Source: Myxococcales bacterium (GTDB taxonomy: Bacteria > Myxococcota_A > Polyangia > Haliangiales > Haliangiaceae). Taken from it: a stretch of DNA of 37,215 nucleotides. Made by a program: the position numbers and the translations under genes. The notes below the pieces were generated by a model, which searched no databases, was not told the DNA's origin, and worked only from the letters and a program-made list of their open reading frames with translations. Shown here one piece after another: positions 18,037 through 34,421 of the stretch; position 1 is the stretch's first letter; the number at the start of each line of letters is the position of its first letter. The stretch spans positions 1-37,215 of the forward strand of contig JAEUJY010000158.1 in the NCBI GenBank assembly GCA_016794525.1. Reading direction: 5' to 3'.

Positions 18037-18111
18037 CCGACCACCCACGCTACACGACGGCGTGGGCCGGCGACAGTTTGTCAGGTTTCGGACCAGCACA
18101 GGTCGACGCGT

Positions 18112-18194
18112 CGGGAGTCTCGCGTCGCGGGGGGAGGCTCGGCGGGGGCATGACCCCGCCGAGGGGGTTCGGCGACGAGCCCCCTGGAATTCAG
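18112..18194 (-). repeat. Post-stop structured repeat, copy 1 (probable terminator)
   Basis: It begins at the TGA of the gene ending at 18191. The outer 30 bp (18112-18141) are identical to copy 2 at 34337-34366. The inner hairpin has 10-bp perfect arms, CTCGGCGGGG (18138-18147) and CCCCGCCGAG (18154-18163), with a 6-nt loop. The side nearest the stop codon shares CGGCGACGAGCCCCCTG with copy 2. Hairpin arms differ between the copies beyond the first four bases but remain self-complementary. It likely ends transcription of the upstream gene. Confidence 0.72.
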
Positions 18195-19131: not shown

Positions 19132-19778
19132 CGCCGCTTGGTCGCCGCCTTCGCGGGCTTCTTCGCGGGGGCGGGCTTCTTGGCGGCGGGCTTCTTCGCG
19201 GCGGCGGCGGGCTTCTTCGCAGCGGCGGCGGGCTTCTTGGCGGCGGCGGCGGGCTTCTTGGCGGCGGCGGGCTTCTTCGCCGCGGGGGCCGGCGCGGCGG
19301 CCGCGCCCTGGCCGCGCGCGGCGCGGACCGCGGCCAGCACCTCGTCGGCGTGGCCCTTCACCGACACCTTCGGCCAGTGGGCGAGCACGCGGCCGTCCTC
19401 GCCGATCAGAACCGTCGAGCGGATGATGCCGAGCATCGGCTTGCCGTACATGACCTTCTCGCCCCAGGCGCCGTACGCGGTCAGCACGCCGCCGTCGGCG
19501 TCGCTGAGCAGCGGGAAGTTCAGGCGGAACTTGTCGCGGAACTTGCAGTGCGACGCGATCGAGTCCTTGCTGACGCCGAAGATGCGCGCGCCGAGCTTGG
19601 CGAACGCGGGGCCGGCGTCGCGGAACGCCTCGGCCTCGATGGTGCACCCGGGCGTATTGTCGCGGGGGTAGAAGTAGACGACGACCAGCGAGCCGCGCAG
19701 CGACGCGAGCGACACGGTGTCGCCGTCCGACGACGGGAGCGCGAAGTCAGGGGCGAGTTGACCGACGGAGAGGGCCAT
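19128..19778 (-). CDS. bcp: BCP/PrxQ-type peroxiredoxin with Lys/Ala/Pro-rich tail
   Basis: 216 residues. Residues 1-146 are a peroxiredoxin of the BCP group, which reduces peroxides with a thiol donor: PDFALPSSDG, VVYFYPRDNTPGC with peroxidatic Cys45, then FGVSKDSIASHCKFRDKFRLNFPLLSD. The usual resolving Cys five residues later is Glu50; Cys78 is the remaining candidate. Residues ~150-216 are an AAKKPAA repeat tail like histone H1 or bacterial H1-like proteins, strongly basic and likely disordered. Such tails bind DNA or other polyanions elsewhere; here that is inference. TACCCT (minus strand, 19786-19791) ends seven bases before the ATG. Confidence 0.93.
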   Translation of the reverse strand: MALSVGQLAPDFALPSSDGDTVSLASLRGSLVVVYFYPRDNTPGCTIEAEAFRDAGPAFAKLGARIFGVSKDSIASHCKFRDKFRLNFPLLSDADGGVLTAYGAWGEKVMYGKPMLGIIRSTVLIGEDGRVLAHWPKVSVKGHADEVLAAVRAARGQGAAAAPAPAAKKPAAAKKPAAAAKKPAAAAKKPAAAAKKPAAKKPAPAKKPAKAATKRR

Positions 19779-24773: not shown

Positions 24774-24903
24774 GGAGCCTCCCCGGCGAAGATTGCGTGC
24801 GGCAAAAGGTAGCAGTACGCGCGGCTCCGCCGTCAACGGCGAATGGCTCGCGTTGGGCTCGCGTTTCTGCGCGGTGCCGCGAAATTCGCGAGCGATCGCG
24901 GCA

Positions 24904-24994
24904 GGTTGGGACCCCGGATCCTGTCCCTTTCTGCGACGCGGTGCGGCCGAAAAGGTGTTTGATCGCGAGGGGTTGGGACCCCGGATCCTGTCCC
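24904..24994. repeat. Two direct copies of a 24-bp element beside nspC
   Basis: Identical 24-bp copies occupy 24904-24927 and 24971-24994, 67 bp apart. Each reads GGTTGGGACCCCGGATCC then TGTCCC. GGGAC and GTCCC arms flank GGATCC, so each copy can form a small hairpin. The right copy lies two bases past the nspC stop codon. No transposase frame is present in the 223-bp gap. It may be a terminator, a REP-like element or the footprint of a miniature mobile element; similar strings occur as dispersed repeats in related genomes as far as I recall. Confidence 0.7.
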
Positions 24995-34237: not shown

Positions 34238-34336
34238 CCGCGGCCGCTGGGTTGATCCAGATCCCGGTCCGCGCGGTGGGCTCTCGCGTTTCGGGTTGGG
34301 GCCCCGTCGGGGTGTCCCCCTCGACGGTTGTCGCGC

Positions 34337-34421
34337 CGGGAGTCTCGCGTCGCGGGGGGAGGCTCGATCCCGGCTTTGCCGGGATCGAGGGGGCGGCGGC
34401 GACGAGCCCCCTGAAACTCAG
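34337..34421 (-). repeat. Post-stop structured repeat, copy 2 (probable terminator)
   Basis: Starts at the TGA of the antiporter gene ending at 34418. The 30 bp at 34337-34366 are identical to copy 1 at 18112-18141. The hairpin arms are CTCGATCCCGGC (34363-34374) and GCCGGGATCGAG (34378-34389), 12 bp, perfect, with a TTT loop. The stop-proximal flank again has CGGCGACGAGCCCCCTG. Placed between convergent genes, it could end transcription from both sides. Confidence 0.72.

Follow-up and report, generated by a model that had tools for sequence, protein, structure and literature searches.

REPs lie near stop codons, and those within 15 nt of a stop can stall ribosomes (PMC12306157). TnpA_REP cleaves at a CT beside its hairpins (PMC8266576), and other insertion sequences (ISs) use REPs as targets (PMC2817692). 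Further families of stem-loop repeats are found at gene 3´ ends, including ERIC, NEMIS, Bor, Ype and Efa (PMC1590033). How REP-like repeats move, and why they occur at stop codons, is an open question, and the element described here bears on both parts of it. The element is genuine and occurs in many copies, its mobility is supported, and its anchoring to gene ends is unusually precise. No earlier report of the repeat in myxobacteria was found in the open-licence literature.

Two copies of a double-hairpin element

The window, that is, the whole stretch of 37,215 nt analysed, is contig C40 of a genome assembly of 9.8 Mb in 177 contigs (G000). Inspection of its sequence reveals two copies of the element, both on the minus strand behind unrelated genes and both with the same order on that strand: a TGA stop, six bases, hairpin 1 (HP1), hairpin 2 (HP2), a C-rich tail and the block GCGACGCGAGACTCCC. 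On its 5´ side, copy A is bounded by the TGA of a YgaP-like gene (DUF2892; Pfam PF11127) at 18191–18193. HP1 (GGGGGCTCG-TCGC-CGAACCCCC) follows at 18163–18184 with one C-A mismatch, and HP2 (CTCGGCGGGG-TCATGC-CCCCGCCGAG), the hairpin reported in the first-pass annotation, at 18138–18163; the tail with the GCGACGCGAGACTCCC block occupies 18113–18137, and weaker similarity continues to 18087. Copy B starts at the TGA of a Na+/H+ antiporter gene (PF00999) at 34418–34420 and comprises HP1 (GGGGGCTCGTCGCCGCCGCCCCC; 34389–34411), the 3´ arm of which is degraded, HP2 (CTCGATCCCGGC-AAA-GCCGGGATCGAG; 34363–34389), and the tail and GCGACGCGAGACTCCC block at 34338–34362, with similarity on to 34325.

Re-inspection confirmed that the outer 30-bp block and the stop-proximal 17-bp block are each identical in the two copies, as first noted, and that the arms of the central hairpin (10 and 12 bp) differ between the copies, yet are complementary within each. 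The original placement of the element was correct but too short, since blastn similarity extends about 13–25 bp past the outer end then proposed (18087–18192 and 34325–34419). Similarly, the description of one hairpin between two conserved flanks was right for HP2, but it missed HP1 between the stop and HP2, because HP1 is imperfect in both window copies; the 17-bp block contains the 5´ arm and loop of this hairpin. The window has no Rfam match above the gathering score; the best sub-threshold match to an Rfam family scored 20.5 bits against a cut-off of 70. Other repeats in the window are two 58-bp direct repeats at 24870–24994, which are 67 bp apart and end in GGTTGGGACCCCGGATCCTGTCCC, and 18–21-bp unit repeats (GCGGGCTTCTTCGCGGCG) on the minus strand at 19147–19320, which would translate on that strand into a Lys/Ala/Pro-rich repeat resembling a histone-H1-like tail.

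Read in sense, the family unit is CTGARYTNCA, HP1, HP2 (CTCG..CGAG) and CCTCCC..GACGCGAGAC, and measures about 80 bp, with extended forms of about 110–140 bp. The stem of HP1 is mostly 8–11 bp with a conserved loop of TCGC, TCAC, TTCC or TCGA, and that of HP2 mostly 9–12 bp with a consensus foot that is usually CTCG..CGAG. The tail after HP2 is of the CCTCCC type and is followed by GACGCGAGAC; such type-1 tails extend further in some copies only, and a second tail type (GACGGCTGTCCGC..) continues for about 60 nt at >80% identity. Hairpins number two, sometimes three, in a fixed order, and HP2 types combine with different HP1 types across copies. At L010, L016, L036 and L309 (G000:C72) the element is longer, with an additional conserved segment (AGGTGGAGGCAGGTGGYTCACC..) that separates the two hairpin regions.

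Dispersal of the family and its position at gene ends

That the element is dispersed, as the annotation proposed from two copies, is borne out by at least 143 copies in G000 (R1 and R2 loci combined, a lower bound with the true number probably higher, since each model search scored 150 candidates). The outer flank as a 29-mer with up to three mismatches has 18 matches in G000 and none for a reversed control, and a 108-nt consensus gives 43 blastn matches. A covariance model of HP1, HP2 and flanks built on alignment A2 (R1) finds at least about 92 copies at E near 0.001 or better; in the retrieved G000 loci it gives 101 matches, or 100 once one duplicate is dropped. The first 12 positions of R1 include CTGAGTTCCA, the flank with CTGA, and are a source of position bias. 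A core-only model without flanks (R2), made to remove this bias, finds at least 137 copies, of which 43 were new and were retrieved and read.

Occurrence is patchy. In the search across congeners, G000 and G006 give about 94–97 copies each, with at least about 97 in G006, many of them as tandem arrays; at the same threshold, one of the other five congeners has two copies and four have none. Under a strict threshold, G000 and G006 provide the sole matches among 377 genomes of the phylum. Two-hairpin relatives with different stems and tails occur in G023, G026, G027 and G031, diverged relatives being confined to other Myxococcota among the genomes scanned, and of 84,980 species searched by pattern, only MAGs labelled Myxococcales, Deltaproteobacteria or Labilithrix gave matches. 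The phage records searched with the element gave no match. Tandem units in G006 measure about 70–125 nt and are in direct orientation (loci L217–L247; e.g., six units in L234), and some arrays sit at contig ends, where the assembly probably breaks. In L081 (G023) and L101 (G027), at about 1350–1750, diverged elements lie between two partial copies of one gene end, as if the last 50–100 bp or so of the gene had been duplicated around the element.

The stop codon of an upstream gene on the same strand falls within −13 to +3 nt of HP1 in 78 of 100 R1 copies, compared with 67 of 3959 random positions (1.7%), upstream gene ends being called with a codon-usage score trained on G000. Because R1 itself contains the CTGA flank, the position test was repeated with R2 copies, and 33 of the 43 new copies in this flank-free set lie at −12 to +2 from HP1. 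The fusion to stop codons first noticed in the window is thus a property of the family; roughly one copy in five lies away from any scored stop codon. The element is nearly always in sense relative to the upstream gene, TGA, TAG and TAA are all represented among the anchoring stops, and the first unit of the G006 arrays, where scorable, is usually at a stop again. Three copies lie about 9–11 nt past the 3´ ends of tRNA-Asn, tRNA-Gly and tRNA-Gln, implying that translation itself is not needed for anchoring. The next gene is tandem or convergent at about equal frequency, and at least 150 nt of non-coding-looking room is present beyond the element in 30 of the 78 stop-anchored copies, so the position is not forced by a shortage of space. 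Among the 47 copies with a spacing of −6, 42 have a C immediately before TGA, compared with 46 of 115 control TGA genes (Fisher p=3e-9), which argues that C|TGA belongs to the element or to its target. However, the CTGA edge is missing from several copies, TAG and TAA cases included; these begin further on by a few bases but are still at the stop, so that a CTGA target can account for only part of the pattern.

Orthologous sites without the element are available for comparison. In six congeners, antiporter orthologs end at or near the same residue and are without it; in G006, the closest (83% identity), about 28 nt separate the stop from that of an apparent convergent gene, compared with about 180 nt in G000. 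The G006 orthologs of the rhodanese-type, FtsX-type and YgaP-like genes have the same end position, with TGA, TAG and TGA stops, respectively, and again no element. The L075/L259 pair, a mis-pairing, was excluded from this comparison. Judged from these alignments, in which the diverged orthologs do not define the 3´ junctions, the element is an addition at the native stop and the host gene's own stop is kept, because the G006 orthologs end at the same residue without it. No flanking duplication was seen by eye at the copies, and no new insertion event was observed in the genomes compared. Mobility of the family is supported by its patchy occurrence, by orthologous sites that lack it and by the near-identity of copies that follow unrelated genes.

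Maintenance of the stems and possible routes of movement

In alignment A2, 96% of stem cells are paired and 37 stem cells have changes on both sides, compared with nine in shuffles; pairing falls to 53–58% when the partner is slid by one base. In a set of 192 distinct rows drawn from G000, G006 and class-level relatives, pairing is perfectly Watson-Crick in 166 of 180 HP1 stems, which have 60 different 5´ arms, and in 153 of 172 HP2 stems, which have 49. The covariation that the annotation read from one pair of hairpins therefore extends to compensatory changes throughout the family, with pairing kept. Neither two isolated copies nor copies at random positions with broken stems, the findings it had set against its reading, describe the family. 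If selection acted on RNA from the sense transcript, G-U intermediates should exceed A-C. No such wobble bias is seen: the mismatches of both hairpins comprise 6 G-T/T-G and 11 A-C/C-A, small counts from a hairpin finder that scores Watson-Crick pairs only. Because G-T mismatches do not exceed A-C, the pairing appears to be maintained at the DNA level, and a folded single-stranded DNA substrate, or correction from arm to arm in replication, fits at least as well as selection on RNA. Of the two readings offered by the annotation, a selected structure or a mobile terminator-like repeat, mobility has gained from dispersal, empty sites and patchiness, and selection on a transcript structure is not clearly supported. 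The C-rich tail is complementary to the 5´ arm of HP1 slightly beyond expectation (mean shared match 5.02 compared with 4.54, sd 0.08, in shuffled pairings); this lends weak support to a switch in which the tail pairs alternatively with that arm, and shared descent can explain the signal.

Genes with Y1_Tnp matches number 17 in G000 and none in G006, and element sequence adjoins them at about 8 of the 17 G000 loci; a constant match about 320 nt into the Y1 region, probably due to flanking sequence in the query, was left out of this count. An IS-like unit of about 1.5 kb with a Y1 transposase and inverted ends of about 25 bp (CTGATCATTCATCACATCTCCACGG) lies inside or directly beside the repeat at L176 (G000:C143), L248 (C47), L250 (C113), L253 (C51), L255 (C67), L256 (C106), L272 (C95) and L296 (C127), with remnants in G006 at L223 and L224. 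The IS end is often directly after the element's ..RAC; other junctions interrupt the HP1 loop or HP2, and at L176 a 10-bp repeat, CCCCCGCGAC, is present on both sides of the Y1 IS. Where both sides are seen (C143 and C47), the element parts flanking the Y1 gene are in direct orientation. The Y1 protein matches REP-associated transposases distantly (28 bits, cut-off 80), and Y1 number does not track element number across congeners. Most simply, the repeats would serve the Y1 IS as targets, in the way that REPs serve other ISs; it may also mobilise the repeat.

We consider it probable, though by no means assured, that the element is a mobile palindromic repeat of a REP-like, non-autonomous type with its anchor at gene ends, and that its mover may be a Y1 (HUH) transposase. 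The mobile form would be a folded single strand of DNA, which such an enzyme, of the IS200/REP type and acting in trans, would cut at C|T(GA). Insertion would take place in a single orientation without target duplication, placing the 5´ edge of the repeat at the stop or a few bases from it, or just past a tRNA, and leaving the host gene intact. Its arms may stay perfect through the folded DNA being the substrate, or through one arm templating repair of the other. In the transcript, a hairpin would lie within about 13 nt of the stop; the analogy of E. coli REPs suggests that it should delay ribosomes at termination or shield the 3´ ends of mRNAs, either incidentally or as a use acquired later. 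Against a Y1 enzyme as the mover stand the roughly 97 G006 copies alongside no Y1_Tnp match, and the variable junctions of the Y1 IS, one with a 10-bp flanking repeat, which suit an IS that targets the repeat. More tentatively, insertion may be directed to the ends of protein-coding and tRNA genes, which would allow harmless spread in a dense genome by way of a folded strand in which any stem sequence serves if it pairs.

Selection for function at the RNA level would give a different account, in which the double hairpin ends or protects the mRNA or acts on the terminating ribosome, and working copies at stops are retained. The strict sense orientation and the tight spacing to gene ends, tRNAs included, even where 150 nt or more lie beyond, would be expected of such an element, as would the compensatory stem changes, and REPs within 15 nt of stops can stall ribosomes (PMC12306157). 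The mismatches without wobble bias speak against it, as do the missing T-tract, the orthologs that manage without the element, and native gaps of only about 30 nt at two orthologous sites; we regard this account as unlikely but not negligible. Improbable to a greater degree is a dedicated machinery that targets insertion to gene 3´ ends, so that anchoring reflects targeting and not selection. It would explain the same anchoring at all three stop codons and tRNA ends with variable element edges, and the like behaviour of diverged type-2 and G006 copies, but no candidate enzyme was found and about a fifth of the copies are away from a scored stop. Old terminator hairpins residing at each gene and homogenised by gene conversion could produce identical blocks in otherwise different copies and the combination of HP2 types with different HP1 types; empty orthologous sites, and zero to two copies in most congeners, make this highly improbable.

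With more than 100 copies, natural empty sites, an orientation-locked CTGA junction and about 60 stem versions, the mobile repeat offers a data set for separating targeting from selection, and for asking whether an HUH enzyme reads the loop and foldedness, not the stem sequence. Should its hairpins act on ribosomes at termination, the 3´ ends of well over 100 genes in one species would be subject to retuning by a mobile repeat.

Comparison with known repeat systems

An intrinsic terminator also has a GC-rich hairpin after the stop, but the element has conserved flanks, dispersed near-identical copies and no T-tract; the annotation's statement on the latter agrees with the finding of no site with a hairpin followed by a T-run, and this identity was rejected. 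Integron attC sites also follow stop codons, and the copies of the element are dispersed singly behind unrelated genes.

The element resembles REP/BIME/REPIN systems with RAYT (TnpA_REP) in that its extragenic palindromes are short, GC-rich and numerous, show compensatory changes and concentrate at gene 3´ ends, as well as in the fraction within 15 nt of stops, in serving as IS target and in a CT beside the hairpin. It differs in having two (sometimes three) ordered hairpins over about 80 bp, which start from the stop and read in the same direction as the upstream gene, and in its tandem direct arrays. The REP tag, unpaired at the palindrome foot, is rare or absent in the 5´ flank of 100 copies (GTAG in 3, CTAC in 6, GTGG in none), and at the Y1 loci examined a Y1 gene was never between two inverted element copies. 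The element thus has in common with the GTAG super-family a large number of extragenic palindromes at the 3´ ends of genes and, failing the tests of tag and flanking transposase, is a new REP-like variant and not a REP member. CGTC-tagged REPs (PMC3733652) likewise have no dedicated transposase next to the repeats. CGTC is found on the complementary strand of the tail (GACG) in 76 of 100 copies, and HP1 would be compatible with their format (8–9-bp stem, loop of 4–5) in the lengths of its stem and loop. However, this CGTC is about 10 nt from the stem and not at the hairpin foot, the stems do not start with A-T pairs, and the hairpin is double.

MITEs and palindrome-associated elements derived from IS200/IS605 share hairpins and may share a fixed 5´ flank without target duplication, given the C before TGA in most copies at −6, with TAG and TAA copies differing, and the lack of an evident duplication; they differ in that no parent with matching ends was identified for the element. 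ERIC, NEMIS, Bor, Ype and Efa are similar as repeated stem-loops close to the 3´ ends of coding regions; the element differs from them in sequence and architecture, and its orientation lock and exact anchoring at stops are stronger.
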